Part shown: positions 35,360 to 64,000 of the stretch, one piece after another | Position numbering within the stretch: position 1 is the first letter of the stretch | Layout of the letters: every line of letters starts with the position of its first letter | Source of the DNA: Acholoe squamosa | Taxonomy: Eukaryota; Annelida; Polychaeta; Phyllodocida; Polynoidae | NCBI GenBank assembly: GCA_949317995.1 | Contig: OX439041.1 | Location: 16,585,501-16,649,500 of the forward strand | Length of the DNA: 64,000 nucleotides | Direction of reading: 5' to 3' | Notes under the pieces: generated by a model | What the model saw: only the letters and a program-made list of their open reading frames with translations | Told to the model about the DNA's origin: nothing | Databases searched by the model: none | Made by a program: the position numbers and the translations under genes

Positions 35360-35571
35360 TTCGTGCGGACTGCAAATGGGACGTTCTTCCTGCGATCTGT
35401 GTACAGACGGTTCTAGAGTTTCCCACTAGGCGGCGCTGCGCTAGTATTGTTATTGCGATCGCGCAGAGGTCCCGATCTCAGCTGTCAGCTCTATCAGCTC
35501 TGCCATCTTCGTGGCGGCAATTTCAACCTTGAAACTTGAAACTTGTGTAGATCTACCCTTTTTTTCACGGT
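35360..35571 (+). promoter_or_regulatory. Candidate promoter and non-coding first exon of the chromodomain-NADAR gene
   Basis: This is a locally GC- and CpG-rich stretch in otherwise AT-rich DNA. It contains GCGATCGCGC and GCCATCTTCGTGGCGGC, which includes the complement of a YY1-like AAGATGGC core. It ends in TTTCACG followed by a good donor, GTAAGT, at 35572. The next usable acceptor is at 38056, where the first recognised coding exon begins. No convincing open frame runs through it, so it would be 5' untranslated. Linking it to the gene is inference from position and the donor. Confidence 0.4.
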
Positions 35572-36159: not shown

Positions 36160-37078
36160 TAAAGATAGAGATTTAAGGTGTGGGGGCAGAAGATGTTTTC
36201 CCCATAATTCTTCGCTTGGGGCCATTCACCCCAGAGCCCCCCCCCTGAAATTTTGCAATTTTTACCCAAGTCTTTATAGATCTAGGTTGCAAACCTTACT
36301 GGAACACAAATAAGAACTAGAGATTTAAGGTGTGGAGGCAGAAGATGTTTTCCCCATAAATCTGGGCTTGGGGCCATTCACCCCAGAGCCCCCCCTGAAA
36401 ATTTGTAAATTTTTACCCAAGGCTTTATAGGTCTAGGTTGTTAACCTTTCTAGAGCACAAATGAGAACTACATAGTTATGGTGTAGGTTGCAGACTTCTT
36501 TTATATAATTCTAGGGCTCAGGGCCATTCAGCCCAGAACCCCCCCCCCACCAGAAAATTTGCAATTTTCATCTAAAGCTTAAGATCTAGTTCCAAACCTT
36601 ACTGGAGCATAATTAAGAACTACAGATTTAAGGTGTGGGGACAGAAGATGTTTTCTCTATAATTCTGGTCTTGGGACCATTCACCCCAGAGCCCCCCTCC
36701 AAGAAAATTTGCAATTTTTACCAAAGGGTTTATAGATCTAAGTTCCAAACCTTTCTAGAGCACAAATGAGAACTACATATCTATGGTGTGGGTGGTAGGA
36801 GATTTTCTGATATATTTCTAGGACTTGGGGCCATTCACCAGAGAGCCCCCCCTGAAGATTTGCAATTTTGACCCAAGGCTTTATAGATCTAGGTCACAAA
36901 CCTTACTGGAGCACAAATAAGAACTAGAGAGTTAAGGTGTGGGGGCAGAAGATGTTTCCCCAATAATTCTGGGCTTGAGGCCATTCACCCCAAAGCCCCC
37001 CCTTTAAAATTTGCAGTTTTTACCCAGGGCTTTATAGATCTAGGTTGTTAACCTTTCTAGAGCACAAATGAGAAGTTC
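36160..37078. repeat. About 152-bp tandem repeat, 6 copies, in the putative first intron
   Basis: Units start near 36171, 36323, 36474, 36626, 36779 and 36930. Two subtypes occur: ATTTAAGGTGTGGGGGCAGA and AGTTATGGTGTAGGTTGCAG or similar. All contain CATTCACCCCAGAGCCCCCC and TTTATAGATCTAGGTT. Confidence 0.9.
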
Positions 37079-38056: not shown

Positions 38057-38161
38057 ATCTGTAAAACCAGATAGGCCTCTTCCAACTATGATTAGCCCAA
38101 CCAAGCAGTTTCCTCATCCAGCGGTAGCCAATCTCCCAAAGGGTTCTGTCTTAGCTCAGAG
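38057..38161 (+). CDS. Exon 2: start of the recognised coding region
   Basis: The acceptor is TCTCCTTTCAG and the donor is GTAAAT. Only one frame is open. It contains ATG at 38088 followed by ISPTKQFPHPAVANLPKG. It ends with two bases of an Arg codon completed by the first base of the exon at 40463. Proline-rich and probably disordered. Confidence 0.65.
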
Positions 38162-41100
38162 GTAAATTATATATGTATTATAAATCATGCCATGAAACCT
38201 AGGGGTGTCATCGATACCCCCTGAATCAATGTTTCAGTATTTCTAGAATTCCGAATATTGCATCAACAATAATCTTATAGTGATCAAATTTATTACTCCC
38301 AAAAATTGTTCTATAGTGCTAAATCTTGGAGATCAAGAAATTCCCTATTAGATCATGGGGCCTAATGGAAAGGTCATAGGTTTATCTTTGGTTCTAACCT
38401 GTCCTCATCACACTACCTGCGACTAAATCAGACATTACCCTTTAAGGGCAGAGCAAAAATGGTTGTCCTTGCCATGGGGACGGCCTCTGAAAAAAGTATA
38501 GTTCCTAGAAGAGGAGCCTATTTTCAGTTCCTATACAAATCCTATATAATGGGTATCAACTATAGTCAGCGCTAGGCCTTCCATGGCGTCGACTATAGTC
38601 CATGCTAGGCCTACCATGGTGTCGAATATAGTCGCTGCTAGCCCTCAGTGGGTTAAGCCCAGTAGAAAATAACACCATTTCCGCCAACCCGACTCGCCCC
38701 AACTCAACTGACCCAGTTGGGGTCTGTAACCAGTATTGGCCATTAGCTGGTCTGGAGCTGGTTCTTCTGACACATACTGATAAGAACTGATAAGATGGGA
38801 CCATCATGTCCCTGGAAGTGGGTGTCAACCAGGGACAAGGTACCCATCATGCTGTCTTATCAGTGGGATTCGCCTTGACCAGCAAAATTCAAAATGGTTG
38901 CTCCACTAGGCCTCCATACTGAGTTCTATACGGACCCACCCCCTTCTGTGCACTCCAGGCGTCAGAGGCGGCAGAACCGCAGTGGGGGGGGGGGGGGGCA
39001 GGTGGCATGTTATGGAATTTCAGTACAGAGATTAGAAGTCATCCAGGCCAAAAATCCCTTAAATCCACATTATGTACCCCCCTAAATATTGATTTTGTAT
39101 ATGAATGTATAGGGCTTTTGGACTTGAAAATCTCTGAAATCAGGGAAATCCCTGACAACTTCCATCACTGCCAGTGAGTATGAGAATTTTGTTGGAACCC
39201 TCCTCCCCTCACTCTCACTAGGCCTGTCCTCTAGTCTGTCCAAAAGATGTGGGTGCGAGTTGAGAAGTCCTGGTGCCTCTCCAGTCCACCCACCACTTAG
39301 GGAGCGTTCATTATTTATTGCAGGGGGGTGCCAATCTGGCAGAACGAATATGTCAAAAAAAATTTACCCCCCCCCCCCCCGGAATAGGTTGAAAAAAAGT
39401 GTCTTCTTTTCCTATTGGGCTTTGAGATTTAGACACAAGCCTTTACCTCTTGACGCTAGTGAATTCCCCATATGATATAGTAAATTAGTTGAAGTACGGT
39501 GGATAACGCGAAGTTATTATTGGTTTATTAAGTTACGGTGGAGATTCATACTTAGCAGCTTAATTACTGCACGTACCTACACCTCAAAACCCTCCACCCT
39601 CCTATAGCCCAAGAGGACTTTATACCTATGGGAAAGTATGAAAATGAATCTTGGATATAGGATTTGCTCTTTATAAGCAAGGTCCCCTTATATACGAGCT
39701 CCTTATAAAGAAGGTTTACTGTAGTACATATATAGAAGGCAAGGATATGCCCAGACGGGGCCCCAGGGGAATTGGTGGTATTTGTGCTGTAGAACTAGTA
39801 GGGTAAAGTATAGGCTCCCGAGGCATGCTGTAGTTCTTTATAACCTAAAGGAGTAGGGAAGAGCCCCGGGGGCATTGACAGGTATGAGTCATGCCCCCAG
39901 GGCGGCAGTTGTATTAGCAGAAACAGACCACTCAAGTTTGTGAAAGTGTACATCTGCTTGGGAATGATGATTTAGAACGATCCTGTGCTGGGAGAGTGAA
40001 TTCACATGTCAGTCCGTGCAGGGTGGTACTGCTTTACAATCCATACGCGTGGCACACGGTATGCCCAGGGGGCATAAACCAAAAACTCAAGTTGTATCCT
40101 TTATTTATTAAATATTCTAATTGAAGAAGACTTTTCTTTTTAAAATCACTTTATCTCTGCTTAAATGCACTAAGGATGGTCATGTTACCCTGTACTCATC
40201 AAATTATACTTTCAACAATTTGTATCATGCTGTATCATACTCATTGTCTTAGGTTTTAGGTTTTACACACTGTTTTCAATATTGTGCATTTTGTTCACAT
40301 ATCATACATGTACATGTCAACTTGAAGGAGGTCTCAATCATCCATTTTGTCTCCATCCAGAGGTCAACAGAGTTAGGTCCTCGATTTATGATTCCTTTAA
40401 ATCTTAACGAGTCCTCCTTTATTGGCAGTTTCGTTTAATCTAAAAACCTTTTATTCATCTAGGGTGCCAATGCTTTTCCTGGCCCCTCCTAAGCAGAGCA
40501 AGGTGAAGCCACCTCCAGGGTTTCAACCAAAGCCCGTCCAGTTTCTGCTTCCTAAGGTACTCAGTTTTATTACCATAATCTTGTGCATGTAAGCCACATC
40601 TCAGATGTTAATCACAATCCTCCTGCCCCTTAAAATGATGTTTTCCAGTCTCATAGGTGGCAACTATTCTCAGATTGGCATATGACCTTTTTCAAGCATG
40701 GGGTTCTTCATGAAAATCCTAGAAATGTGAAAGTTTTAAGGCTAACAGGTCGTTTTTGTGATTTGCACAGATCCAATGAGAAAATAAATCTAGGTTAATA
40801 GTTTATGTCATCTCATCATATGGGGTATCACAATATGGTAGCTTCTAATCCTTCATTACAATTGATTTCTTTCTTGCCCTCTTATCACTCCCTTCATATT
40901 GTGACACAGGCACCTCATGCTGGAGTTGGAGCACCTAGGGATGTTGAGGACAAAGATTTCAACACATATAAAGTGGAGGCTGTGAAGGATGAGCGTGTTT
41001 GTAAAGGCAAGAACGAGTACCTGCTGAAAAGGTCTGGATACCCTGAGTATGCTTTTGTTTCATTAAAATTAGCAAACTAATTTTTGTTACTTGGGCCAAC

Positions 41101-44100
41101 TGATGTTGTCGCAGAACCATATTTACAATTGGGCAGCTCCACCTAAGGCACCTTAAGGATGCCATTTGATACACCACCACCTGCATCTTATTACACTATA
41201 TATAAAAATGGGTTAGTAGATCGCTGGTTCTATGGGCTGAAGCAGTGAAAAGTATACAGTGTATACATCATAGCTGCTATCCCAAGTCTAGTGCCAAAGG
41301 CACTATTAGATCTGAAAAAGGCTTTTGATACTGTAAATCACTCTATTTTGATACATAAATTAGCAAAATTTGGTACTTCAGAACATTGGTTTAAAAGTTA
41401 CTTGTACGATAGGCAGCAAAACAAGGAGTGACTCAAGGATCGGTCCTCTTTTGTTTAATATCTATTTCAATCATATATACAAGCAAATTAAAAATTGTAA
41501 TTTTTTCTTATTATACGCTGTTGACCTGCCACTGGTGATACATGGCGATGATGTTGACTCTATGGAAGCACATATCCAACACAATTTTTATAAGATATCT
41601 GACTGATGCCTGACAAATATGCTTACTGTTAATGCTAAGAAGACAAAAATTATGTGGAGTTAACCAACTCATGTCACAAACACTAGTACACCACAGGAAC
41701 TAGGGAACTGACTGTCTCCCTCAACTATTTATGGATGGCACAGTGCATTATTTTCTTTATTGTTATTGAAAACATCAGTAGCTTTTGACAGTTCATTATG
41801 ATTTAATTTCAATACCTTTTTGTCCCATAATAGTACAAAGGGCATGCTGAATAATTTCATATTCAAAGGCATCTCCTTAGGACTGAGTCCTTCACCTGTG
41901 ATATTTTATCATGTCTTATGACCCCAGGAACCCCAAATGCCATGAAGGGTGTATCCCACTTTCGGATGTTAACCCATTAAGGGCCGCTGATGCATTAATG
42001 CATTATGCTCATTGGTCATCATAATGGATGAGTGCAGCCCTGGCAAGTGACTCCCCAGGACTACATTCATGCATCATGCCCACTTACAGGATTGTTGCAC
42101 AAAACCCCTGATGGGCATCATGATGCTCCAATGAAATCCTGGCGAGCAGTCTCACCAGCACTTCATTGGTGCATCATGATGACCTATCAACATTATTAAC
42201 TCCTGCATCAGCGGCCCTTAAAGGGTTAAACAAATCAATTGCATGAATATTGTATGCCTGGTTACTATATTACTTGCATTCCACTCTCTAGAAAGGCATG
42301 TTTCCTTTGTATATTGCAGTTCTGAGACCATGAAAACACAGGCACCTGATCTTGCAGTTAAAGCATCTGGGGATATTGAAGACCAAGAATGGAAGAAGTC
42401 TGAGGTGGAGGCAGTCAAAGATGTGCGTGTGCGTAACGACAAGAAAGAGTACCTGGTGAAATGGACCAGTTGCCCTAAGTATGTTTCTATTCTCAGTTAA
42501 GATTTTAAGAGGCTTCTTGTGACACTGTCATGCTACTGGTATGCCACTGGCATTATTTAAGCTACAATATCACAGCCAATACTGATCTCATTTTTATGTT
42601 ATTGACTACACATCAATAACATATTGATATATACCAAAATTGCCACACAGAACCACATTAAATTAGATAGGGCATCTGACTGATATAGGAATATAGAGGG
42701 AATTCTGGACTATTCTGTAGTAGGCATTATGCATAGAACATGAAAGTCAATAACTCTTAGGCCTATGGCCTAGACTTAACCTTTATAGCTACACATGAAT
42801 TTCAGTGTTCTTTCTCTATCTGTGAATTCTCCTGTAGTAAGCAATCAATCATTCACTAAGGATATGTGGGAATTTACCATAGCCACTAATAGGAAACAGT
42901 CCTTAGGGTTTCTCATTACACATTAACGGATTTTTGTGCAAAACTTTTGGATAGGGGTAATATTTAAACTTATGTAGGCAATCTTATTTTGGTATATCCA
43001 AAATGACTGCATTTGTGCACTCATGCCAACCCTACAGGCATTATAGATTTCCATGGGGCCCAGGTGGCCAACATTATGCATTAGTCCAGCCCCACTGTGT
43101 TTTTCTTTGCAGCTCTCTCAACACCTGGGAAGAAGAAGAGATTCTTGACTGTGAACATCTCGTTAAACAATTTGAAGACAAATTAAAAGCAAAGCAGGAC
43201 CGAAAGCAGAAGCGACTCACAGACTCTGAGAAAAGGGGAGAGAAGGAGGTAAGTGTATACATTTTCTAACACAAAGAGCCAGGACTGCATCAGAACCTGC
43301 TTAACCTTGTCTTTAAGGTGTACCTCCTATCATGCCCTTCAGAATAATAGCACTTATTTCTACACAGCATGTGCCTTACATATTTTCTTACATGTATATT
43401 GTCAGTAGACCATTCTGTCAGATTTTGAAAATGCAAGGAAATTCTTCTGAGGAAGCAAATTATCTAAGGATGTGCGTCCAAATATACTAAAAAAATATAG
43501 AAGGAGTTGTAGATTCTCTCTCTGAGGTAATGAGGGATCTGAGGAATTAAATGGTCAGGGAAGCAAGGGCCAACTGTATCTTGTGTAGTCACTTGTCTCC
43601 CTATCATGTATCTCACAACTTCCAGCATCACGGTCAGCCACCACTTCTTACCGTTCCTCCCTGTAGTGAACCATCTGAGTAAGTACAAAAGTTTTTAATC
43701 CTCAGTACTTACCATAGGCTTGGGCAACCACTATGTGTACAATTCTCTTTCCATCTCAGTCAGTCATCATGTTAAAACATGGCTAGTGCATTAATGCACT
43801 ATGAGGAGGATATAGTATGAAACTGTGTTATCCTGGGCCCCATAGATCATTATTTTCCATCAATGATACCACGTATGATCATAACAAATGAAAGGGAATT
43901 ACATACAGATTCCAAATCAGTCGTTTTCTAATACATTTCACAAACCTTGGTTCGTTCACCATGGTCACTCTAACCATTTATATCAATATACCTGGGTTTG
44001 GGACCTCAATCTGCTGTATTCTAGGGACTTTTAACAATGATAGAGCCAGCTGCAAAGAGTTAAGGTTATCTTTCAATTCTCTTAGTCGTTGTCTGGTGCA

Positions 44101-47100
44101 TTATATACCTAAAAAGTAATGTCTGCTATTATTTGCCTGAGCTTTGCTGAACCCACTTTTTCTCACTTTTCAGAATGAGCTTCATACTTTGCATCTACTG
44201 TGGCCTTTTTCATCTACATGGTGAATGTCTCAAGTAGGTATTTAGTTCCTTCTTTTCTTCACTTTTGTCTCAAGTAGGTATTTAGTTCCTTCTTTTCTTC
44301 ACTTTTTGGTGTTCTGTCTTTCGTGAAACTTATCCTTTCAAAATGGTTTATATTTCTTAACCACACAATCTTCATCTTTATTCCCACTCAACTGTTCACT
44401 TACTACAGGTTCTTAGGTCTTCTATATTGTGATGACCTTACTAATATATTTTTGTTTTCCTGCCAGAGGTCCTCCTCCTTCTTCCCCCCTGGTTTCCCTT
44501 GGAGAAAAGGCGGATATGGACAATGGCCAGGTATGTTTTTATTTTACACATCCAGTGCTAGGGAACAGTTACATACACCTACATGTGATTCTCATAGACT
44601 ACACCATGCTTACAACTATAAAAAATTATCAATCTTAACTCATTAAACATAATTCATACTTGAAATTAATGTATGCCCTAAATTTTCCCTAATCTTTACT
44701 GGCATTGCAGAGCGCATATTATTTCTTCACCAAAAGATACGGTCTCTCTATGCACTTTCCGTGCACATTACAATATGGTGGACTGGAATACAGTTCGGCA
44801 GAGCATTTCTACATGCACCGTAAAGCCAGTAAGTTCATAACACCTTTCTTATCTTCCTTTTCCAATTTAGTGTAAGCACATCAATGACTCATTTTGACAG
44901 GGAACTATGCCACCACCTTCTAAACTGTCCTGTTATTTTTACTTGAATATGGGTTTCAACCCATTGTCCCATTTACAGTCGTGTATAAACTATGAATAAG
45001 ATTTCTTTGTTCAGTCTTGCTTTGGCTGGAAATGAAAAAGGTAAGGGAATTTGTCAACCTTATATTTGGATATGCCACCCTCTTCTTGCCAGTGCATGAC
45101 ATTTTATCACAAACTATGACCTGACTTCTGTATCTGCAGTTTTTGGATCACATTTCCGGGGAACCTGAAAAACGATGATCAAGCCTTACTATGTTTATTT
45201 CGTCATCTTCATCAGATTCTATCAAGCTAAGTTTTATAAACCATTTATTCCAGCATGAACTACTTTGTATTTAGGACTCATCGCACTGGAGCATTAATCC
45301 CAACATCCACTGCTTAGTCTCTAGAACTCACCTTCCTGTAATATTAATGCTTGCATGAACCACTTAGTATTTAGGATTTGCCTTCCTGTAACATAAATGC
45401 CTGCATGAACCACTTAGTATGCAGGACTTGCCTTCCTTTAACTTTACTGCCTGCATGAACCAACCCATTGTCCCATTTACAGTCCTGTAAATTTAGGACT
45501 GACCGTCCTTAATGCCTGCATGAACCACTTAGTATGTAGGACTTGGCATCCTGTAACCTTAATGCATGCATGAACCACTTAGCATTTAGTACTTGGCGTC
45601 CTGTAACCTTAATGCCTGCATGAACCACTTAGCATTTAGTACTTGCCATCCTGTAACATTAATGCCTACATGGACCACTTAGTATTTAGGACTCACCTTC
45701 CTGCAACTTTAATGCCTGCATGAACCACTTAGTACTTATAACTCACCTCACTGTAACATTAATGCCTGCATGAACCACTTAGTATTTAGGACTCACCTTA
45801 CTGCAACATTTATTTCAGTATGAAATATTTTGAATTTAGCACTCACTGCAACAGTCATTCCAACATCAACCAACTCTCCATACTGCAAGATTAATTAATT
45901 AGGACTCTTAATGTAACATTAATAGCAGCATTTTATGTCTTATTGTATGCAAACTAAATTAAACGATTACAATGAAAACAATATTTCAGAGCCCATGCAC
46001 CTGCGGATATGACATTTCTATGAATTATGGAAGATTTTACTATTCTATCAAATTTAATTTCTTTGAATATCAAAGATGACAGTGTTTTTTTCTTTCAACA
46101 GGTACTGAAGCGCATAGCAACCCAGCAGTCATCCAGTTTCGCTTATTCATCTGCCTCTAAAAGAAATTCTTTCAACTAGTCAATATCTGCTAAAGCTGCT
46201 TTGATCTATGACCAGTTCCCTTAGTTGAAGAGAATCTTATAAGGCTCACCAGGGGCTTGAGTTTTGAGGGTTTAGTACTGTTCTATAGTTAAACTACCCC
46301 ACCTATGAGATGTACCCCTCCTTTGAGAGGTTCTATAAGGTGCAAAAGGCCTTTGATTTATGTACAAGCCTGAGATTACGGTACTATATTTAACCATGAG
46401 TTCATGAGATTTTCAATGTTATTTCATGTGAATTTCATTGTTCAAGTGCTCTTCAATGATACAAGCACAGCCGAGAAGATCTTAAGAGCTTCAACAGCAG
46501 CCGAGGCTAAACGCCTCGGCAATAAAGTTGAATTCTTCCAGGAGGACGTCTGGAGAAGGCACCAGACTACTGTGGCCTTTTCGGCCAACTACTTGAAGGT
46601 GATGTCCTTTTGTTGAATATAAACCGCTAGTCTATAATCATGCCACTATAAAGAGAATTTACATTTATCTCAAGTTGAATATGACAGCCCCATAAGTTTA
46701 ACCAAGAACCTCTGTATCACACCCCCCTATCGCACTGCCAGGTAGATCATTGCAAATGGTCATATAACTAATTATAAACTGATTACTAATGCCAAATAAA
46801 TGAATTTTTGAACATTTTTGACAAAAATAACTTGAGATAAACACGAAGGAGCACTCGAATTGGTCCCCACTAAAGGTTATCACACTCGGCTTCGTCTCGT
46901 GTGATAACCCTCAGTGTAGACCAATTCTCGTGGACCTATTTATTATTCCAAACCTCCATATCATATTGGAGTACTTCAACTTGAATGCAAAGGAGAAAAA
47001 AAATACATCACGGTGGCTGGGCCAAAGGAGAAAAAAATACATCACGGTGGCTGGGGCATCTCCTTATTGCAATTAATATCTGTACTGAGGTATTTAGCCT

Positions 47101-50100
47101 CTAGCATAAGTTAATTAAAAGCATTCAAACCTTTTTTCATATTGTCGCTCCTGTTCATTGCTTACATTAATGGAGAAACTTCCTGGGGATGCATTTTATC
47201 TCATACTTATAGTGTGGCATTGTGTATAGTATACATGTTCCCAATTAAATTGACCTTTTCTATTTTAACCTTGCAGTTCTCACAGAATGCTGTTCTCCAT
47301 ACAGCCCTTTTGGCAACAGATGAGGCATGTCTTGTAGAGGCCAATCCTCATGACATATTTTGGGGGTGTGGGATGTCGATGTGGGACCCCAATGCCCTCG
47401 ACTCCAGGTGCTGGCCAGGAGAGAACTTCATGGGGACGATTATCATGAGTGTCCGACACAGATTGAGACAGGTATGGAACTAAAGTATTGAAACTTGATA
47501 TCTTTGAATAGTTGAAGAAATCATCTACATCATACATGGATAACCAAAAATTAAGGTTGTTATTCCGTTCCGTAAAATTCTCTTGTACTATCCACAGCTT
47601 ACACTCTGACCCAAACAAAGGTGGGGGTGAATAGAAGGAGCCCAGAGTTTGGGTGTGGCTTTTAGTTGTGGGCTCTGCTTACACAAGGGTCGTGCTTTTA
47701 ATCTGTGACATCTCATGCATGCAAAGGCCTCTATCCATGTTTACACTCCTGACAGAGAATACTCTCGGTGTTATCAGTAAAATAATTTTGCATGGACTTA
47801 AAATTTCATGCAGAAAACTGGCAAAAAATATCAAATCTTTCTATTACTTATGTCTATTGACAGTCAACATCCATTATATTATCCTGTTGGTTTGAAAAAA
47901 AGATCCTGAAGAAGGGCCAAAATGTCAATCATTAATCAATACCACTTCTACACTAATATATTGCTCATTTGATGTAACTGGTTTTATTCATTGTAATAAA
48001 ATTGTTAACTTTATTGGAAATCGTCTGGTTTTGTGGAACATTCCACCCCAAAAGATATTTTTCATTAATTTTTCATAGGAGTCTGCTGCTAGACAAAACA
48101 GTGTCCTTCCAACACCACCTACTCAGAAGGTAATAGACAATTACTTAATAGATATTATTTTCAATTGGGTACATACATATACAAGCCATCTGCTATTTCA
48201 GTAGCCATATAACTATACAGCTATGAAGCATTCCATAAATTTTAAAGAATACGCCATTAAGCATGTGGTGTGCAGGTTTTCTTTCATTGTTATTGTCCTT
48301 TCTGTTTCAGAGAGAGGCATATCCTGACAAGATGACACATTCTAGTCTTACTCCTAAGGTAATGTCACTTCTTATCCTACATATATCATAAAATACTACC
48401 TAATCTTCTACCCTTTATTTTCTTTCACTCTAACATAGGTAATAAAGGCTGGAGCATGAGAAATTTAGACAAGACCTCACATGTTCTTTCCTTGGCAGGC
48501 CTACGCCCAGCTTAATATTTCGTAAATTTCTGACATGTATGTAGATTTGTCAGGACAACCCAATTTCATTAGTTCCAAAGAAAACAGGTCTGCTCTTTAA
48601 ACTTTTAAGGACAACTATATATAACACCCTATTGTAATTCCTCCACTCCTTCACAGGTTGTCCACTTTGTTACACTATCCTTTCTTTTTTAGAAACAAGA
48701 CATGAAGCCAAAGAAGCTGATACCTCCTCGTCTTCCGCCCCAGGTAAATTTACTTCTTGTACACATAGCCCAGTTAATACAGCTGTTTTTTATGTTTGTT
48801 ATAGACTGTCAGATGCCCATCTTGATATGCCTGCCATCCCTTCATTTATGTATAATCTATAGAGGACATAAAACAAGTAACAGTTCTAAAGTTAACCTAA
48901 GAATAACTGTATTCGCTCTCTTACCCTGTTATGAGATGTTAAACATATGTTCTTACTGTCTTATCTACTTTAGAAATTGGCCATCAAGCATACAAAGCTG
49001 ACACCTAGGTTTACCCCCAAGGTAATTTTAATTTCTTACATGTCACATAGTTATTACAATTTTATTTAATTGTATTCATATCCTGTTGAATCCCCACCCT
49101 TTCTTCATATACCTTGATCTCTACTACAGTGTAAGTGAGACAAGTAATATAATATATTGATGTTTTCGTTTTAAGATGCCTGCATACCTTCAACACTACC
49201 TGCGCCTGGATGTTAGTGAGGATGTCCAAGCACTACTGAGGTACCCTTCCACATACCTGTACAAGGTAAGTTCAGTATACCTGCATAGAAGGCACTCTCC
49301 TAGCTCTTTCTAACTTTGCATCTTATACGCATGGGGAGATAGCACTTATTCTTGATATTTTCCATTATAAATTAATTGAAGGTAAAAAACATTAGTCCCC
49401 ACATCAAAAAATGCTGCAAGAGGAAAGTACATAAATTTCTACCCGCATACCTTTAACTCTCCATGTAACAATGAATATATGAAAAAAATTGTTTTTTCTC
49501 TTAAGTGCCTCATGGTGGCTTAAGGAACCAGGATTGAAAAATATGCTTGAATGGTTTGCAGAAGCGAAGAGACCATTCCAAAATGAGCTATCAAATTACT
49601 GCTGAAATCAAAAATGGTTCAGTTCTCTTGTGTAGTGCAAAAAGTATAGATCATGTAACACAATTATTCCCTGACATATTTCCGGCCTATGAAACTCAAA
49701 CAATTATGTCGGACTACACAACTTTAACCTACGCTACATTTATAGCATAAAATAACCTTCTTTGGTGCTATAGAAGCACCTGCAATTTTCTCCCTCCTAA
49801 CACATTGCCTACATGACTAATTGAATCCCACGTAATGAAAGTCTTCTCTTTTCAGACATTTTCAACTCCACCTGAGAAGAGCTCAGCCAGATTAAAGAAG
49901 GGAACTACTTCTCACAAGAAGAAAGCAAGGAAACAACAGAAACCATTCATTTTTTCATCTCAAGTATCGGGAGAGGGAGAACAGAGGCATGTCCCACAAC
50001 AGGGGGGCGGTAAGAAGGGTGGGGCTCCTTCCCAAAACAAAACAATAACCATGGTCACAGAATTTCAGGTTGTTCAGGGAACTATACCAAATACCCTTAA

Positions 50101-50527
50101 CATCCTTCCTTCTCTCTCTGTCTTGGATGATATGGAAGAGAGCCTCATTGCATACAGTTCGGAAAATGGTGTAGGGCGCGAAAATGTCAGCATTTCCTGC
50201 AAGTTTGGTACTATAAACTTAGAGGGGATACGACTGAAGAAGAGAGAGCATCGTTTAGCTAATGAGGCTGCAGGAAGAGCGAGGGTTATAGAGTGGACGA
50301 AAAACAGAGATTACTGTTCCATACCTTCTCAGTCTCCTGTTGATTTCCGAAGCCTTACCACATTTCAAGAAATATGTAGTAACTCCTCTTTACAGGAAAA
50401 ACATTTACTGAATGGTATGGTGACAAATTATTCTTTTATTCACTCCAAATTGCTAGTTTATGGTGCCTGGACAACATTTAGACCAATATTTCATACATTT
50501 GATGAGCCTGGACAACACTTGGTCTAG
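38088..50527 (+). CDS. Chromodomain-NADAR fusion protein, 15 coding exons (660 aa)
   Basis: Exons read from splice signals and matching phases: 38088-38161 (exon from 38057), 40463-40556, 40910-41046 or 42342-42478, 43113-43248, 43626-43678, 44467-44530, 44711-44828, 46447-46598, 47277-47471, 48079-48129, 48311-48358, 48693-48743, 48974-49021, 49176-49265, 49856-50527. All junctions are AG/GT and lengths sum to 660 codons plus stop. Residues 1-56 are proline-rich; about 76-125 form a chromodomain (EYLVKW, then SLNTWEEEEILDCEHL); 187-341 form a full NADAR domain; 342-437 come mostly from Pro/Thr/Lys micro-exons; 438-660 are basic and unrecognised. NADAR proteins (YbiA/COG3236) are N-glycosidases of ADP-ribose-like or riboflavin-pathway substrates, and some act on ADP-ribosylated guanine. 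A nuclear, chromatin-directed role is inferred. The ATG at 38088 is preferred (A at -3), but the frame is open to the exon edge at 38057, so an upstream start is possible. Confidence 0.8.
38733..38922. mobile_element. Short MITE (CAGTAT family), copy 2, in the intron after exon 2
   Basis: Reverse-complement match to 10717-10898 along its length, from GTATTGGCCATTAGCTGG to CTAGGCCTCCATACTG. Having two copies lets the element ends be defined. No ORF. Confidence 0.6.
40463..40556 (+). CDS. Exon 3: proline/lysine-rich segment
   Basis: The acceptor is TTTTATTCATCTAG and the donor is GTACTC. It encodes APPKQSKVKPPPGFQPKPV and neighbouring residues and ends in phase 0, which fits both alternative chromodomain exons. 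Its Pro/Lys style resembles the later micro-exons and it too ends in Pro-Lys. Confidence 0.7.
40910..41046 (+). CDS. Exon 4A: alternative N-terminal half of the chromodomain
   Basis: A 137-base exon (phase 0 to phase 2) between GTGACACAG and the donor GTATGC. It encodes GAPRDVEDKDFNTYKVEAVK, then DERVCKGKNEYLLKRSGYP. Lined up with HP1 chromodomains without gaps, it keeps the first aromatic-cage position (Tyr of TYKVE) and the third (Tyr of GYP). The second, normally Trp in LKW, is Arg. The downstream exon at 43113 completes the fold as PDSLNTWEEEE. It is a paralogue of exon 4B. Confidence 0.7.
41287..41665 (+). mobile_element. LINE reverse-transcriptase fragment in the intron between exons 4A and 4B
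   Basis: The conceptual reading gives LDLKKAFDTVNHSILIHKLA, then GVTQGS, LLFNIYFNHIYKQI and YAVD where YADD is usual. This is the palm region of a non-LTR retrotransposon RT. It has an internal stop, a frame break around the GVTQGS...LLFN region and a changed catalytic motif, so it is an old dead fragment. It lies between the two chromodomain alternatives but not in an exon. Confidence 0.75.
41969..42229. mobile_element. piggyBac-like MITE, full copy with TTAA at both ends
   Basis: Terminal inverted repeats: TTAACCCATTAAGGGCCGCT at the left, and TTAACCCTTTAAGGGCCGCT on the other strand at the right, both continuing GATGCA. The TTAA flanks and a TIR starting CCC are the piggyBac signature. 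Internally there are two palindromic arms, CCTGGCAAGTGACTCCCCAGG and CCTGGCGAGCAGTCTCACCAG. Decayed relatives elsewhere in the window are listed separately. No coding capacity. Confidence 0.8.
42342..42478 (+). CDS. Exon 4B: alternative N-terminal half of the chromodomain
   Basis: Exactly 137 bases, phase 0 to phase 2, with donor GTATGT. It encodes GDIEDQEWKKSEVEAVKD, then VRVRNDKKEYLVKWTSCP. The acceptor matching exon 4A is AAAACACAG at 42341. A stronger-looking ATTGCAG at 42319 would put TGA in frame after exon 3. That upstream AG could instead serve a transcript starting here, because ATG at 42330 is in frame with the chromodomain. Cage positions: Ser in place of the first Tyr, Trp retained, Cys at the third. 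Confidence 0.72.
43113..43248 (+). CDS. Exon 5: C-terminal half of the chromodomain and basic helix
   Basis: The acceptor is TTTTTCTTTGCAG and the donor is GTAAGT. It encodes SLNTWEEEEILDCEHL, the classic chromodomain block that follows the aromatic cage (compare ENTWEPEENLDC in HP1 and Polycomb), then VKQFEDKLKAKQDRKQKR, a basic and probably helical tail. It starts with one carried base and ends in phase 0. It serves whichever of exons 4A and 4B is used. Confidence 0.8.
43626..44530 (+). CDS. Exons 6-7: linker between chromodomain and NADAR (43626-43678, 44467-44530)
   Basis: Two small exons join in frame (phase 2 junction making a Glu codon). They give HHGQPPLLTVPPCSEPS, then GPPPSSPLVSLGEKADMDNG. 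The donors are GTAAGT and GTATGT; the acceptors are AACTTCCAG and TTTCCTGCCAG. The segment is Pro/Ser-rich and looks like a flexible linker. The intron between them holds a tandem duplication of about 39 bases (44227-44305). Confidence 0.65.
44711..47471 (+). CDS. Exons 8-10: complete NADAR domain (44711-44828, 46447-46598, 47277-47471)
   Basis: Exon 8 encodes YYFFTKRYGLSMHFPCTL and then GLEYSSAEHFYMHRKA, the NADAR N-terminal block with the conserved Glu-His after Ser-Ala. Exon 9 encodes STAEKILRASTAAEAKRLG, matching the AEKI...EAKxLG helix, and ends SANYLK. Exon 10 opens FSQNAVLHTALLATDE, then LVEANPHDIFWGCGMS and WPGENFMGTIIMSVRHRLRQ, matching FSQNxxLxxxLLAT, LVEASPxDxxWGIG and WxGxNxLGxxLMxVRxxLR. 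All diagnostic blocks are present in order with intact splicing, so the domain looks functional. Family members cleave N-glycosidic bonds in ADP-ribose-like and riboflavin-precursor substrates. Confidence 0.88.
45210..45850. repeat. 50-bp minisatellite in the intron between NADAR exons 8 and 9
   Basis: About twelve copies containing GCATGAACCACTTAGTAT, at 50-base spacing over most of the array (45354, 45404, 45454, then 45519, 45569, 45619, 45669, 45719 and 45769). Confidence 0.9.
46857..46927. repeat. Long hairpin in the intron between NADAR exons 9 and 10
   Basis: GGTTATCACAC pairs exactly with GTGTGATAACC around CTCGGCTTCGTCTCG, and the outer arms GAATTGGTC and GACCAATTC also pair. Its style (GATAAC arms, CTCGG/CTCG centre) resembles the palindrome at 18392-18459. 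Confidence 0.8.
48079..49265 (+). CDS. Exons 11-15: run of phase-0 micro-exons
   Basis: Four consecutive exons of 51, 48, 51 and 48 bases (48079, 48311, 48693, 48974) encode ESAARQNSVLPTPPTQK, REAYPDKMTHSSLTPK, KQDMKPKKLIPPRLPPQ and KLAIKHTKLTPRFTPK. A 90-base exon (49176-49265) follows, with MPAYLQHYLRLDVSEDV and ending STYLYK. All are phase 0 at both ends, so any can be skipped without a frame change. The shared style (basic start, Thr/Pro-Pro, terminal Lys or Gln) and shared donors (GTAAT or GTAAA) suggest tandem exon duplication. Confidence 0.65.
49856..50527 (+). CDS. Exon 16: basic C-terminal exon that runs into satellite DNA
   Basis: The acceptor is CTTCTCTTTTCAG. It encodes a lysine-rich stretch (KKGTTSHKKKARKQQK), a Gly-rich turn, then an unrecognised acidic-to-basic region including NILPSLSVLDDMEESL, ISCKFGTINLEGIRLKKREH and RVIEWTKNRDYC. 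From about 50419 the coding sequence is the first copy of the 179-bp satellite (TNYSFIHSKLLVYGAW onward) and the stop TAG falls within that copy. A possible donor, GTATGG at 50415, sits at the array edge, so the true exon may end there with later exons elsewhere. Confidence 0.65.
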   Translation, partial: TFSTPPEKSSARLKKGTTSHKKKARKQQKPFIFSSQVSGEGEQRHVPQQGGGKKGGAPSQNKTITMVTEFQVVQGTIPNTLNILPSLSVLDDMEESLIAYSSENGVGRENVSISCKFGTINLEGIRLKKREHRLANEAAGRARVIEWTKNRDYCSIPSQSPVDFRSLTTFQEICSNSSLQEKHLLNGMVTNYSFIHSKLLVYGAWTTFRPIFHTFDEPGQHLV

Positions 50528-53500
50528 TATAGTAAGTGTCGGGGTTGACATAGGATTACTACAGGGATGAGCATGTGGGCTATCTCAATACCGGATGGGT
50601 GACAAATTATTCTTTTATTCACTCCAAATTGCTAGTTTAAGGTTCCTGGACAACATTAAGACCAATATTCAAAACATTTGATGGGCCTGGACAACACTTG
50701 GTCTGGTATAGTAAGTGTCTGGGTTGACATAGGATTACTACAGGGATGAGCATGTGTACTATCTCAATATCGGATGGGTGACAAATTATTCCTTTATTCA
50801 CTCCAAATTGCTAGTTTATGGTGCCTGGACAACATTTAGACCAATATTTCATACATTTGATGAGCCTGGACAACACTTGGTCTGGTATAGTAAGTGTCTG
50901 GGTTGACATAGGATTACTACAGGGATGAGCATGTGTACTATCTCAATATCGGATGGGTGACAAATTATTCTTTTACTCACATTAGATTGCTAGTTTAAGG
51001 TTCCTGGACAACATTTAGACCAATATTCAAAACATTTGATAAGGCTGGACAACACTTGGTCTGGTATAGTAAGTTTTGGGGTTGACATAGGATTACTACA
51101 GGGATGAGCATGTGTACTATCTCAATATCGGATGGGTGACAAATTATTCTTTTATTCACTCCAAATTGCTAGTTTATGGTGCCTGGACAACATTTAGACC
51201 AATATTTCATACATTTGATGAGCCTGGACAACACTTGGTCTAGTATAGTAAGTGTCGGGGTTGACATAGGATTACTACAGGGATGAGCATGTGTACTATC
51301 TCAATATCGGATGGGTGACAAATTATTCTTTTACTCACATTAGATTGCTAGTTTAAGGTTCCTGGACAACATTTAGACCAATATTCAAAACATTTGATAA
51401 GGCTGGACAACACTTGGTCTGGTATAGTAAGTTTTGGGGTTGACATAGGATTACTACAGGGATGAGCATGTGTACTATCTCAATATCGGATGGGTGACAA
51501 ATTATTCTTTTATTCACTCCAAATTGCTAGTTTATGGTGCCTGGACAACATTTAGACCAATATTTCATACATTTGATGAGCCTGGACAACACTTGGTCTA
51601 GTATAGTAAGTGTCGGGGTTGACATAGGATTACTACAGGGATGAGGATGCGTGCTATTTCAATACCGGATGGGTGACACATTATTCTTTTATTCACTCCA
51701 AATTGCTAGTTTAAGGTTCCTGGACAACATTTAGACCAATATTCAAAACATTTGATGGGCCTGGACAACACTTGGTCTGGTATAGTAAGTGTCTGGGTTG
51801 ACATAGGATTACTACAGGGATGAGCATGTGTACTATCTCAATATCGGATGGGTGACAAATTATTCTTTTATTCACTCCAAATTGCTAGTTTAAGGTTCCT
51901 GGACAACATTTAGACCAATATTCAAAACATTTGATGGGCCTGGACAACACTTGGTCTGGTATAGTAAGTGTCTGGGTTGACATAGGATTACTACAGGGAT
52001 GAGCATGTGTACTATCTCAATATCGGATGGGTGACAAATTATTCCTTTATTCACTCCAAATTGCTAGTTTATGGTGCCTGGACAACATTTAGACCAATAT
52101 TTCATACATTTGATGAGCCTGGACAACACTTGGTCTGGTATAGTAAGTGTCTGGGTTGACATAGGATTACTACAGGGATGAGCATGTGGGCTATCTCAAT
52201 ACCGGATGGGTGACAAATTATTCTTTTATTCACTCCAAATTGCTAGTTTAAGGTTCCTGGACAACATTTAGACCAATATTCAAAACATTTGATGGGCCTG
52301 GACAACACTTGGTCTGGTATAGTAAGTGTCTGGGTTGACATAGGATTACTACAGGGATGAGCATGTGTACTATCTCAATATCGGATGGGTGACAAATTAT
52401 TCCTTTATTCACTCCAAATTGCTAGTTTATGGTGCCTGGACAACATTTAGACCAATATTTCATACATTTGATGAGCCTGGACAACACTTGGTCTGGTATA
52501 GTAAGTGTCTGGGTTGACATAGGATTACTACAGGGATGAGCATGTGTACTATCTCAATATCGGATGGGTGACAAATTATTCTTTTACTCACATTAGATTG
52601 CTAGTTTAAGGTTCCTGGACAACATTTAGACCAATATTCAAAACATTTGATAAGGCTGGACAACACTTGGTCTGGTATAGTAAGTTTTGGGGTTGACATA
52701 GGATTACTACAGGGATGAGCATGTGTACTATCTCAATATCGGATGGGTGACAAATTATTCTTTTATTCACTCCAAATTGCTAGTTTATGGTGCCTGGACA
52801 ACATTTAGACCAATATTTCATACATTTGATGAGCCTGGACAACACTTGGTCTAGTATAGTAAGTGTCGGGGTTGACATAGGATTACTACAGGGATGAGCA
52901 TGTGTACTATCTCAATATCGGATGGGTGACAAATTATTCTTTTACTCACATTAGATTGCTAGTTTAAGGTTCCTGGACAACATTTAGACCAATATTCAAA
53001 ACATTTGATAAGGCTGGACAACACTTGGTCTGGTATAGTAAGTTTTGGGGTTGACATAGGATTACTACAGGGATGAGCATGTGTACTATCTCAATATCGG
53101 ATGGGTGACAAATTATTCTTTTATTCACTCCAAATTGCTAGTTTATGGTGCCTGGACAACATTTAGACCAATATTTCATACATTTGATGAGCCTGGACAA
53201 CACTTGGTCTAGTATAGTAAGTGTCGGGGTTGACATAGGATTACTACAGGGATGAGGATGCGTGCTATTTCAATACCGGATGGGTGACACATTATTCTTT
53301 TATTCACTCCAAATTGCTAGTTTAAGGTTCCTGGACAACATTTAGACCAATATTCAAAACATTTGATGGGCCTGGACAACACTTGGTCTGGTATAGTAAG
53401 TGTCTGGGTTGACATAGGATTACTACAGGGATGAGCATGTGTACTATCTCAATATCGGATGGGTGACAAATTATTCTTTTATTCACTCCAAATTGCTAGT

Positions 53501-56500
53501 TTAAGGTTCCTGGACAACATTTAGACCAATATTCAAAACATTTGATGGGCCTGGACAACACTTGGTCTGGTATAGTAAGTGTCTGGGTTGACATAGGATT
53601 ACTACAGGGATGAGCATGTGTACTATCTCAATATCGGATGGGTGACAAATTATTCCTTTATTCACTCCAAATTGCTAGTTTATGGTGCCTGGACAACATT
53701 TAGACCAATATTTCATACATTTGATGAGCCTGGACAACACTTGGTCTGGTATAGTAAGTGTCTGGGTTGACATAGGATTACTACAGGGATGAGCATGTGG
53801 GCTATCTCAATACCGGATGGGTGACAAATTATTCTTTTATTCACTCCAAATTGCTAGTTTAAGGTTCCTGGACAACATTTAGACCAATATTCAAAACATT
53901 TGATGGGCCTGGACAACACTTGGTCTGGTATAGTAAGTGTCTGGGTTGACATAGGATTACTACAGGGATGAGCATGTGTACTATCTCAATATCGGATGGG
54001 TGACAAATTATTCTTTTACTCACATTAGATTGCTAGTTTAAGGTTCCTGGACAACATTTAGACCAATATTCAAAACATTTGATAAGGCTGGACAACACTT
54101 GGTCTGGTATAGTAAGTTTTGGGGTTGACATAGGATTACTACAGGGATGAGCATGTGTACTATCTCAATATCGGATGGGTGACAAATTATTCTTTTATTC
54201 ACTCCAAATTGCTAGTTTATGGTGCCTGGACAACATTTAGACCAATATTTCATACATTTGATGAGCCTGGACAACACTTGGTCTAGTATAGTAAGTGTCG
54301 GGGTTGACATAGGATTACTACAGGGATGAGGATGCGTGCTATCTCAATACCGGATGGGTGACAAATTATTCTTTTATTCACTCAAAATTGCTAGTTTAAG
54401 GTGCCTGGACAACATTTAGACCAATATTTCATACATTTGATGAGCCTGGACAACACTTGGTGTGGTATAGTATGTGTCGGGATTCATATAGGATTACTAC
54501 AGGGATGACTATGTGTACTATCTCAATATCGGATGGGTGACAAATTATTCTTTTATTCACTCAAAATTGCTAGTTTAAGGTGCCTGGACAACATTTAGAC
54601 CAATATTTCATACATTTGATGAGCCTGGACAACACTTGGTCTGGTATAGTAAGTGTCGGGGTTGACATAGGATTACTACTGGGATGAGCATGTGGGCTAT
54701 CTCAATACCGGATGGGTGACAAATTATTCTTTTATTCACTCCAAATTGCTAGTTTATGGTGCCTGGACAACATTTAGACCAATATTTCATACATTTGATG
54801 AGCCTGGACAACACTTGGTCTAGTATAGTAAGTGTCGGGGTTGACATAGGATTACTACAGGGATGAGCATGTGTACTATCTCAATATCGGATGGGTGACA
54901 AATTATTCTTTTATTCACTCCAAATTGCTAGTTTATGGTGCCTGGACAACATTTAGACCAATATTTCATACATTTGATGAGCCTGGACAACACTTGGTCT
55001 GGTATAGTAAGTGTCTGGGTTGACATAGGATTACTACAGGGATGAGCATGTGTACTATCTCAATATCGGATGGGTGACAAATTATTCTTTTATTCACTCC
55101 AAATTGCTAGTTTAAGGTTCCTGGACAACATTTAGACCAATATTCAAAACATTTGATGGGCCTGGACAACACTTGGTCTGGTATAGTAAGTGTCTGGGTT
55201 GACATAGGATTACTACAGGGATGAGCATGTGTACTATCTCAATATCGGATGGGTGACAAATTATTCCTTTATTCACTCCAAATTGCTAGTTTATGGTGCC
55301 TGGACAACATTTAGACCAATATTTCATACATTTGATGAGCCTGGACAACAGTTGGTCTGGTATAGTAAGTGTCGGGGTTGACATAGGATTACTACAGGGA
55401 TGAGCATGTGTACTATCTCAATATCGGATGGGTGACAAATTATTCTTTTACTCACATTAGATTGCTAGTTTAAGGTTCCTGGACAACATTTAGACCAATA
55501 TTCAAAACATTTGATGGGCCTGGACAACACTTGGTCTGGTATAGTAAGTGTCTGGGTTGACATAGGATTACTACAGGGATGAGCATGTGTACTATCTCAA
55601 TATCGGATGGGTGACAAATTATTCTTTTATTCACTCCAAATTGCTAGTTTATGGTGCCTGGACAACATTTAGACCAATATTTCATACATTTGATGAGCCT
55701 GGACAACACTTGGTCTAGTATAGTAAGTGTCGGGGTTGACATAGGATTACTACAGGGATGAGGATGCGTGCTATCTCAATACCGGATGGGTGACAAATTA
55801 TTCTTTTATTCACTCAAAATTGCTAGTTTAAGGTGCCTGGACAACATTTAGACCAATATTTCATACATTTGATGAGCCTGGACAACACTTGGTGTGGTAT
55901 AGTATGTGTCGGGATTCATATAGGATTACTACAGGGATGACTATGTGTACTATCTCAATATCGGATGGGTGACAAATTATTCTTTTATTCACTCAAAATT
56001 GCTAGTTTAAGGTGCCTGGACAACATTTAGACCAATATTTCATACATTTGATGAGCCTGGACAACACTTGGTCTGGTATAGTAAGTGTCGGGGTTGACAT
56101 AGGATTACTACTGGGATGAGCATGTGGGCTATCTCAATACCGGATGGGTGACAAATTATTCTTTTATTCACTCCAAATTGCTAGTTATGGTGCCTGGACA
56201 ACATTTAGACCAATATTTCATACATTTGATGAGCCTGGACAACACTTGGTCTGGTATAGTAAGTGTCTGGGTTGACATAGGATTACTACAGGGATGAGCA
56301 TGTGTACTATCTCAATATCGGATGGGTGACAAATTATTCTTTTATTCACTCCAAATTGCTAGTTTAAGGTTCCTGGACAACATTTAGACCAATATTCAAA
56401 ACATTTGATGGGCCTGGACAACACTTGGTCTGGTATAGTAAGTGTCTGGGTTGACATAGGATTACTACAGGGATGAGCATGTGTACTATCTCAATATCGG

Positions 56501-57593
56501 ATGGGTGACAAATTATTCCTTTATTCACTCCAAATTGCTAGTTTATGGTGCCTGGACAACATTTAGACCAATATTTCATACATTTGATGAGCCTGGACAA
56601 CACTTGGTCTGGTATAGTAAGTGTCGGGGTTGACATAGGATTACTACAGGGATGAGCATGTGGGCTATCTCAATACCGGATGGGTGACAAATTATTCTTT
56701 TATTCACTCCAAATTGCTAGTTTATGGTGCCTGGACAACATTTAGACCAATATTTCATACATTTGATGAGCCTGGACAACACTTGGTCTGGTATAGTAAG
56801 TGTCGGGGTTGACATAGGATTACTACAGGGATGAGCAAGTGTGCTATCTCAATACCGGATGGGTGACAAATTATTTCTTTATTCAATACAAATTGCTAGT
56901 TTAAGGTGCCTGGACAACATTTAGACCAATATTTCATACATTTGATGAGCCTGGACAACACTTGGTCTGGTATAGTAAGTGTCGGGGTTGACATAGGATT
57001 ACTACTGGGATGAGCATGTGTACTATCTCAATATCGGATGGGTGACAAATTATTCTTTTATTCACTCTAAATTGCTAGTTTATGGTGCCTGGACAACATT
57101 TAGACCAATATTTCATACATTTGATGAGCCTGGACAACAGTTGGTCTGGTATAGTAAGGCTATAGTAAGTGTCGGGGTTGACATAGGATTACTACAGGGA
57201 TGAGGATGCGTGCTATCTCAATACCGGATGGGTGACAAATTATTCTTTTATTCACTCAAAATTGCTAGTTTAAGGTTCCTGGACAACATTTAGACCAATA
57301 TTTAAAACATTTGATGGGCCTGGACAACACTTGGTCTGGTATAGTAAGTGTCTGGGTTGACATAGGATTACTACAGGGATGAACATGTGGGCTATCTCAA
57401 TACAGGATGGGTGACAAATTATTCTTTTATTTACTCAAAATTGCTAGTTTAAGGTGCCTGGACAACATTTAGACCAATATTTCATACATTTGATGAGCCT
57501 GGACAACACTTGGTGTGGTATAGTATGTGTCGGGATTCATATAGGATTACTACAGGGATGACTATGTGTACTATCTCAATATCGGATGGGTGC
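50419..57593. repeat. 179-bp satellite array, about 40 copies
   Basis: Units starting GGTGACAAATTATTC recur every 179 bases, for example at 50419, 50598 and 50777. At least three subtypes are visible: TTTATGGTGCC with CATACATTTGATGAG; TTAAGGTTCC with AAAACATTTGATGGG; and TTTTACTCACATTAGATTG with GATAAGGC. Subtypes recur in blocks: marker variants at 50971/52582, 51641/53252 and 52182/53793 are each 1611 bases (9 units) apart, and 54326/55758 are 1432 bases (8 units) apart. Occasional longer ORFs inside are by-products of the repeat. Confidence 0.95.
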
Positions 57594-61357: not shown

Positions 61358-62149
61358 TCACTGCATAATTGCACGGCAGTTTGGGCAGGACCTCTCAGCT
61401 AGGAATAAGGATTGGATTTTGCCAAAGACTACCCCAAGCTTGCTTGCGATCTTCATGAGAAAAGAGTGATCTGGATGGTAGGCATCCCCAAGACAGTCAT
61501 AAACATGAGACTTTTTCTTCCTGTGAGCAGGGGCCTTTGAGAGATTTTTATGGATCACTCCATCAATTCTGAGATTGGGCATTCTGAGGCTGTTGTTGAA
61601 GGCATGAATGGATGAGTTCAGCATCAGGACTGTACTCTCAAGGTCCTCTTGATGTGGAGATGGGTGGGGAAGCCCATAATACTTTGTTATATCAAAGGCA
61701 TATACACCTGCTATTAATACATGGGTTCCTTGCGAGAGGGTCTTGACTCGAGAATTGATCATGTTGTAGATATTCATGAGTCGGCAGACTGCCTTTTTCT
61801 TGTCTAGTGAGTAGAGGATTTTTCTTCCGTCTGCAGTGTTTCGACCGACAATGTCTGCAATGCCAGTCATAATGATGACAAAATAAATTTTTTCTCTGTG
61901 GAGTATGGAGGAGAGAATTGGATTAATTTCATTGGACTCAAGGTCCATTGATGAATTTATTATGTAGGGAGTTGTGACAGTACCTTGAAAATATTCATGG
62001 AGGCGCTCAATGCGCGTATCCCCTATAATAAGGGTGGTGGGTTTGTCAGGTGAGGGGGTACCCCACCTGAATTCTAGGATTTCCTTGTCCAAGCGGGGAT
62101 ATCTAACACAGTGGCCATTGATGCCAGTGTCATGGGTCACGGGATTCAT
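61358..62149 (-). CDS. SGNH/GDSL-hydrolase-like protein, probable LINE ORF1 (263 aa)
   Basis: An uninterrupted frame. Near residue 40, TTLIIGDTRIERL matches the GDS block of SGNH hydrolases, but with Thr where the catalytic Ser is expected. Near 90, YFVIIMTGIADI matches the GxND block with Ala in place of Asn. Near the C-terminus, DCLGDAYHPDHSF provides the DxxH pair. It ends with a CPNC pair. SGNH-like ORF1 proteins accompany CR1/L2-group LINEs and some tyrosine-recombinase elements; a decayed LINE endonuclease lies 1.2 kb downstream on the same strand. RNA binding or membrane association is more likely than esterase activity given the changed residues. A host-domesticated copy cannot be excluded. 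Confidence 0.6.
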   Translation of the reverse strand: MNPVTHDTGINGHCVRYPRLDKEILEFRWGTPSPDKPTTLIIGDTRIERLHEYFQGTVTTPYIINSSMDLESNEINPILSSILHREKIYFVIIMTGIADIVGRNTADGRKILYSLDKKKAVCRLMNIYNMINSRVKTLSQGTHVLIAGVYAFDITKYYGLPHPSPHQEDLESTVLMLNSSIHAFNNSLRMPNLRIDGVIHKNLSKAPAHRKKKSHVYDCLGDAYHPDHSFLMKIASKLGVVFGKIQSLFLAERSCPNCRAIMQ

Positions 62150-63795: not shown

Positions 63796-64000
63796 GTACG
63801 TGGTGACGCCTGGAGTTAATATGCAGCGTCAGTACATCGGATCGCAGGAAGAACGTACATCGTGCGTTCGGACTCTTCATGTGGGCGCGAAAATACCACC
63901 TAGTGTTCCAAGACAGTACTAAAATTACCAGTTCTCATTTTCTTCACAAGGGGGCGTTTGAAAACCTTCACAGAGATTGCGCAGTGTGTATTCCAGAACT
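63796..64000. other. CpG-richer window end, no gene assigned
   Basis: Contains GATCGCAGGAAGAACGT, the complement of ACGTTCTTCCTGCGATC at 35374 in the putative first exon. This may be a shared repeat or promoter module. Confidence 0.3.

Follow-up and report, generated by a model that had tools for sequence, protein, structure and literature searches.

Does the annelid Acholoe squamosa possess a gene of its own for a chromatin-bound enzyme that clears ADP-ribose from DNA? This question is raised by a window of 64,000 nucleotides (the whole stretch of DNA that was analysed; contig OX439041.1, here C7, positions 16585501-16649500). A sequence-only reading had described a spliced gene there, from 38088 to 50527, which joins a chromodomain to a NADAR domain, and had taken it for a gene of the host that perhaps protects against DNA-modifying ADP-ribosyltransferases of the pierisin/CARP type. 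Our answer is that this is very unlikely. There is hardly any room for doubt that positions 35372-63865 of the window are a transposable element, and the gene is located within it. We consider it probable that this element represents a Mutator-like transposon of giant size (43-47 kb), with the chromodomain and the NADAR domain as an N-terminal module of its transposase.

Ends, duplications and copies of the element

The genome (1.48 Gb, 63 contigs) was searched with the first five exons of the gene (A-E). All 122 candidates were scored and 29 matched, 20 of which are exons A-E at matching intron spacing on four contigs, namely C7 (the window), C6, C8 and C13. Between 35.4 and 50.4 kb the window is 99.6-100% identical to the other three copies in the aligned blocks, with differences in the tandem-repeat stretches; in C8 the intron between exons N and P is shorter by about 170 bp. 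This near-identity suggests recent movement. The boundaries in the window are as follows.

35363..35371, no strand: left target-site duplication (GTGCGGACT), adjoining the left end and one base off its right counterpart
35372..35397, forward strand: left terminal inverted repeat and start of the element, where identity with the C6, C8 and C13 copies starts and beyond which the flanks differ
63840..63865, reverse strand: right terminal inverted repeat and end of the element, which has a 17-nucleotide core in common with the left end
63866..63874, no strand: right target-site duplication (GTTCGGACT), compared with the left duplication

The left end, which reads GCAAATGGGACGTTCTTCC..., is common to all four copies, and their flanks are unrelated. 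The right end is common to all three copies in which it was read (window, C13 and C6) and is an imperfect inverse of the left end, both ends sharing the exact 17-nucleotide core ACGTTCTTCCTGCGATC. Target duplications of 9 bp are exact on C13 (GCTCAGAGC) and on C6 (TGTTCGACC), while eight of the nine bases are equal in the window. With these boundaries the element has 28,494 bp in the window, 42,891 bp on C13 and 46,733 bp on C6. An inverted match between 35768-36004 and 63054-63288 was also considered for the element ends but was rejected, being part of a repeat with several partners. On C6 the element has about 7.7 kb of extra DNA close to its left end (C6:40856625-40864291), perhaps a nested insertion.

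The predicted spliced gene and its two domains

The gene within the element has the following segments, all on the forward strand.

38057..38161: exon A, frame open from 38058, with the ATG of the sequence-only reading at 38088
40463..40556: exon B, open frame, kept in the other copies
40910..41046: exon C, codes for the first chromodomain half (version 1), with Arg in place of Trp45; weak donor (score -2.4)
42342..42478 (alternative start 42320): exon D, codes for the first chromodomain half (version 2), with Ser in place of Tyr24 and Cys in place of Tyr48
43113..43248: exon E, codes for the remaining half of the chromodomain, with a Pfam match when joined
44417..44530: doubtful exon of the earlier model, 114 nucleotides, in phase; acceptor score 0.4
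44467-44530: exon F, a shorter form of the doubtful exon, 64 nucleotides; splice scores 5.1 and 6.1; breaks the frame
44711..44828: exon G, NADAR part 1, with the Glu43 and Lys50 equivalents
46447..46598: exon H, NADAR part 2; weak acceptor (score -2.5)
47277..47471: exon I, NADAR part 3, with the Glu125, Asp130 and Trp133 equivalents
48079..48129: mini-exon J, linker, open frame, kept in the other copies
48311..48358: mini-exon K, linker, open frame, kept in the other copies
48693..48743: mini-exon L, linker, open frame, kept in the other copies
48974..49021: mini-exon M, linker, open frame, kept in the other copies
49176..49265: exon N, linker; acceptor score 0.1, donor 8.1
49856..50420: start of exon P; acceptor score 4.1; 1,625 codons open in the C13 copy

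The chain A-B-C-E-G-H-I-J-K-L-M-N-P reads through without an internal stop, with matching phases, and the same holds with D in place of C. All 14 segments from A to N (F included) keep their AG/GT borders in the C6, C8 and C13 copies; 41 of the 42 comparisons are identical and the remaining one has a single substitution. From the ATG at 38088 the chain comprises 622 codons including the stop (398 residues before P and 224 codons of P). Adding 44417-44530 brings it to 660 codons, and since this is the length of the single frame given in the sequence-only reading, we take the chain plus this segment to be its model. The open, in-phase frame thus stood at the level of sequence, while its length turned out to be one of several in-frame exon choices. 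The segment 44417-44530 is doubtful in that its product (VFYIVMTLLIYFCF...) looks like a translated intron end. Its acceptor score does not exclude it, because the accepted exons H and N score lower. An additional exon at 44174-44220, which would lie between E and F and bring F into frame, was rejected because its join to F creates a stop codon (by eye). The intron before the doubtful exon contains a perfect 40-bp tandem duplication at 44226-44306 of the window. The four mini-exons at 48079-49021 (48-51 nucleotides) have similar Pro/Lys-rich products (..LTPK, ..LPPQ, ..FTPK), as if they had arisen by exon duplication.

Both domains were found when the joined protein was searched against Pfam, as the sequence-only reading had predicted. 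The chromodomain (PF00385, cut-off 25.1 bits) scores 49.8 bits with exons C and E and 55.4 bits with D and E, the single exons being below the cut-off. Exons C and D, duplicates with 99 of 135 bases equal, agree in length and phase and may be alternatives; the D start at 42320 scores better and would place D in frame after C. The ratio of nonsynonymous to synonymous change between them is 0.87 for 45 codons and 0.50 for the final 30 of them, and the stretch is too short for a conclusion. The methyl-lysine cage of chromodomains is formed by Tyr24, Trp45 and Tyr48 (PMC3350952; here and below, sources are cited for the part of their text available to us). According to alignments with HP1, exon C keeps both tyrosines but has Arg at the place of Trp45, while in exon D Tyr24 is replaced by Ser and Tyr48 by Cys. 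Neither version is thus predicted to have a complete cage, and to call the domains complete in their diagnostic blocks went too far. Nine weak matches to exons C, D and E (25.1-40.8 bits) occur elsewhere in the genome, at C16:34859582-34866011 (several in a row), C14:26028910-26029403 and C5:40670194-40705234, and might belong to a source gene or to an older element.

The joined exons G-H-I (44711-47471) match NADAR (PF08719) with 141.6 bits at a cut-off of 35.1 bits. Compared with the oomycete enzyme 8bau, for which residues important for function, including the catalytic Glu/Lys/Glu, have been described (PMC11543638), the window NADAR keeps Glu43, Lys50, Lys75, Trp89, Glu125, Asp130 and Trp133, whereas Tyr84 is replaced by Phe and Asp86 by Glu. 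Two arginines that contact phosphates in the oomycete enzyme are lost (Asn for R79, Gln for R93), so that ligand phosphates would be held somewhat differently. Hydrolysis of guanine-linked ADP-ribose by this domain is plausible. The suggested chromatin-bound de-ADP-ribosylating enzyme therefore retains its hydrolysis residues but has no full methyl-lysine cage.

The closest sequences found for the window NADAR are four metagenomic NADARs (42-44% identity), followed by two stand-alone loci of the same genome, L001 and L002 (35-36%). In a survey of the genome, 150 places were scored from 3,224 first-look candidates, the split NADAR of the window itself being absent from the 150. Very many of these are single-exon frames, most of them uninterrupted and a few with stops. 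The best scores belong to L001 (C17:9901769-9902218, 184 bits, frame of 222 amino acids) and L002 (C14:682108-682554, 169 bits, 247 amino acids), both with single-exon frames. Three of the places were read (L001, L003 and L008); L001 is a stand-alone protein and perhaps the cellular NADAR. In L008 (frame of 506 amino acids) and L003 (broken frame), NADAR is C-terminal in frames that resemble open reading frame 1 (ORF1) of long interspersed nuclear elements (LINEs). An origin of the window NADAR from the LINE-type NADARs of the same genome was rejected, as identity is 28-32% at L003, L005, L006, L007 and L008, and L004 did not match at E 0.001.

The long exon and the competing explanations

In the window, exon P passes into a 179-bp satellite at 50420, and for this reason the last 35 residues of the window frame are coded by satellite. 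The sequence-only reading had ended the gene at 50527, whereas in the C13, C6 and C8 copies the frame continues through exon P without a stop. Exon P comprises 1,625 codons in C13, and the open frames are 1,638 amino acids long in each of the three copies. We infer that the window copy has suffered an internal deletion which removed everything after the start of exon P, rather than being a fault of the assembly.

Motifs in the long exon were assigned by eye, with positions counted in the C13 copy. An order resembling Ulp1 is seen in His238, Asp255, Gln305 and Cys311, and a 217-residue piece has a weak similarity to SENP5 (E 0.02 over 41 residues). A GATA-like finger is indicated by a 90-residue piece that matches the GATA-type factor 2kae in phmmer (E 2.5e-4, or 0.012 with the whole exon); a match to GATA-3 with E 5.5e-6 is the sum of two stretches. 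Mutator-type transposases have a D-D-E core with CxxH between the second D and the E. A candidate for such a core is formed by Asp966, Asp1058, CxxH at 1077-1080 and Glu1186, and a putative SWIM-like finger, CxC...CxH, follows at 1372-1392. Mutator-like elements (MULEs) are described as having target duplications of 8-10 bp and often long inverted repeats (PMC5225508), and in hydra and lancelet some Mutator elements are known to bear Ulp1 (PMC2836005). The 9-bp duplications together with the core, SWIM and Ulp1-like motifs thus indicate the Mutator group, to which we assign the element with good confidence.

When the genome was searched with the long exon, all 20 candidates were scored and 16 matched. 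Three long relatives, at C16:62042759, C7:49950865 and C7:22521643, have 32-33% identity over about 1,500 amino acids, which suggests that these long transposase-like genes form an old family. Two of them are uninterrupted frames of 1,877 and 1,879 amino acids, as expected for a protein kept by selection, and one has a stop.

We propose that the many exons are spliced into one transposase, consisting of the chromodomain, NADAR, a linker from small exons, and the huge exon with, in this order, a Ulp1/SENP-like cysteine protease, a GATA-like zinc finger, the D-D-E core and a SWIM-like finger. That exons A to P encode one joined protein is likely, judging from the frame and the splice sites; in the window copy, only the chromodomain and NADAR would have been left by the deletion. 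The transposase would cut and paste the element, producing the 9-bp duplications, and the chromodomain would tether the transposase complex to chromatin. At the cut or target site, NADAR might strip ADP-ribose from guanine or clear related ADP-ribose compounds, while the protease-like part might take SUMO off repair or silencing factors nearby. By this the element would get past the repair or defence signalling of its host. Such a counter-ADP-ribosylation role of NADAR is a tentative proposal. Equally speculative is its extension, namely that NADAR is a counter-defence module which mobile DNA has acquired independently at least three times (in LINE ORF1, Gypsy Pol and a Mutator-like transposase) and which erases ADP-ribose placed by the host, with chromodomain and SUMO protease acting at the same site.

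A chromatin-bound NADAR of the host that clears ADP-ribosylated DNA would be in line with the introns and the kept hydrolysis residues. However, four near-identical copies on four chromosomes (one contig each) have common ends and 9-bp duplications, and in three of the four the frame enters the transposase-like region. Because of the element ends and copies we rejected this explanation, to which we attribute a very small probability. The main rival accepts a Mutator-like transposon but regards the chromodomain-NADAR part as a captured cargo gene with its own message beside a single-exon transposase. Capture of gene fragments is known from MULEs (PMC6431247), and an intron-rich front contrasts with one huge exon. 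The frame of P is open from 49817, with a possible in-frame start codon before its acceptor, and the distant chromodomain-like exons on C16, C14 and C5 could mark a host source. But there is no in-frame stop from exon A to exon P, and the strong donor of exon N (8.1) is in phase with the P acceptor (4.1). A separate 3′ end was not noticed, although no search was aimed at one. We consider this rival unlikely.

Several points weigh against a Mutator-like transposase with a chromodomain-NADAR front. The terminal inverted repeats are short and imperfect, and long repeats as named for MULEs were not seen. Neither Pfam (whole exon and four pieces) nor NCBIfam gave a significant match for protease, transposase or SWIM, and the Pfam GATA model stays below its cut-off on the long exon (E 0.32). 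Scores are poor at the donor of C (-2.4) and the acceptor of H (-2.5), the frame of P has a possible start codon of its own before the acceptor, and the splice from N to P is predicted from sequence. The two arginines of NADAR are replaced, and the deletion in the window copy is likewise a deduction. The genome search with exons A-E listed no chromodomain exon near the relatives of the long exon, so that the fusion may be peculiar to this element family. Finally, a protein database search with the long exon found no homologue among 3,696 candidates. With the spliced front, four of 1,062 candidates reached E ≤0.001, all of them NADARs and none with a listed chromodomain. As this database is apparently mostly prokaryotic, both outcomes say little about animals.

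Compatible with the transposase that we favour is a further possibility, which concerns the window copy only. As a deletion derivative, it may code for a truncated chromodomain-NADAR product that acts alone, for instance by repressing the full transposase, or it may be dead. The truncated frame is still open and closes after the 35 satellite-coded residues, and exons A-N are the same as in the other copies save for one base in one copy. On balance we regard this as rather unlikely. Further contents of the window copy are listed here.

36169..37074, no strand: 151-bp tandem repeat within the element; alignment offsets differ there in the C13 copy
50419..57592, no strand: array of a 179-bp satellite with about 40 copies, adjoining exon P in the window copy only
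61358..62236, reverse strand: open frame of 292 amino acids in the element, SGNH-hydrolase-like by eye (GDT...GIAD...DAYHPD), identical in the C6 copy

The 292-residue frame has no match in Pfam or NCBIfam. In the C13 copy (fetched stretches L028 from 9063 and L029 1-2438), the 179-bp satellite also occurs inverted, and tandem arrays of 140 bp and 132 bp lie between the blocks. The C6 copy as well has the 179-bp satellite in both orientations. There was no match to Rfam at gathering level and no tRNA.

Comparison with known elements and enzymes

The literature covered consists mostly of titles and abstract openings, outside subscription papers, Repbase and animal protein databases. Within it we found no NADAR in a DNA transposon and, besides Gypsy elements of Ectocarpus, no chromodomain-NADAR protein; one paper (PMC12477816) bore on NADAR in mobile DNA. 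The sequence-only reading knew of no described protein with this layout. This has to be narrowed to DNA transposons, as Gypsy-12_Ec32 is named for NADAR and chromodomain in the available text of that paper. The same architecture may already be present, unnoticed, in existing annotations.

The roles of eukaryotic NADARs, animals included, are called unclear in the available part of a 2024 study (PMC11125620). Since one genome has NADAR both in LINE-like frames and within a giant DNA transposon, mobile DNA is a concrete place to seek these roles. If ADP-ribosylation of nucleic acids serves animals as a defence against transposons, an eraser is to be expected on the elements. If our proposal is true, one transposase unites a fold for chromatin binding, a hydrolase acting on ADP-ribose and a domain that resembles a SUMO protease, which suggests that the element carries its own tools for chromatin and ADP-ribose marks. 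The case is also a warning that a multi-exon 'host gene' may be the front of a transposon.

With the oomycete 8bau and with DarT1-associated NADARs (PMC11543638), the window has the domain in common, and it keeps the Glu/Lys/Glu with which the oomycete enzyme performs catalysis, but the R79 and R93 equivalents are replaced and other domains are joined. The chromodomain belongs to the same sequence family as those of HP1 and of group II retrotransposons, and exon D is without Tyr24 and Tyr48, as is usual in group II (PMC3350952). Exon C, in contrast, keeps both tyrosines and is without Trp45, and group II is described from plant Gypsy elements only in the part of that source available to us.

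Mutator elements that bear Ulp1 (hydra, lancelet, plants; PMC2836005) have a D-D-E-type transposase and a Ulp1-type protease, for both of which our element has candidate motifs, and share with it duplications of the same length class. They differ from our element in its size of 43-47 kb, its chromodomain and NADAR within one frame, its satellite arrays, its second frame, which is SGNH-like, and its short imperfect ends; nor does it match a MULE profile.

The use of NADAR by a mobile element is shared with ORF1 of the oyster Tx1 LINE, which carries NADAR (PMC12477816), and with the LINE-like frames of this genome. Unlike the window NADAR, those of LINE type are in a single exon, and identity to the window NADAR is 28-32% in the five matching loci (LINE-like or unread); the 506-residue frame of L008, the only such frame scanned, has no chromodomain match.

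The closest parallel in domain content is Ectocarpus, where NADAR is found at the start of Gypsy Pol and Gypsy-12_Ec32 is named as an example with NADAR and integrase chromodomain (PMC12477816). As proposed for our element, both domains are part of one mobile-element polyprotein. These Gypsy elements, however, are long terminal repeat retrotransposons with NADAR at the front and the chromodomain at the far end, whereas in Acholoe both adjoin at the front of an intron-bearing DNA transposon. The combination of NADAR and chromodomain in one mobile-element protein is thus already known, while its placement in a DNA transposon is new as far as we have found.

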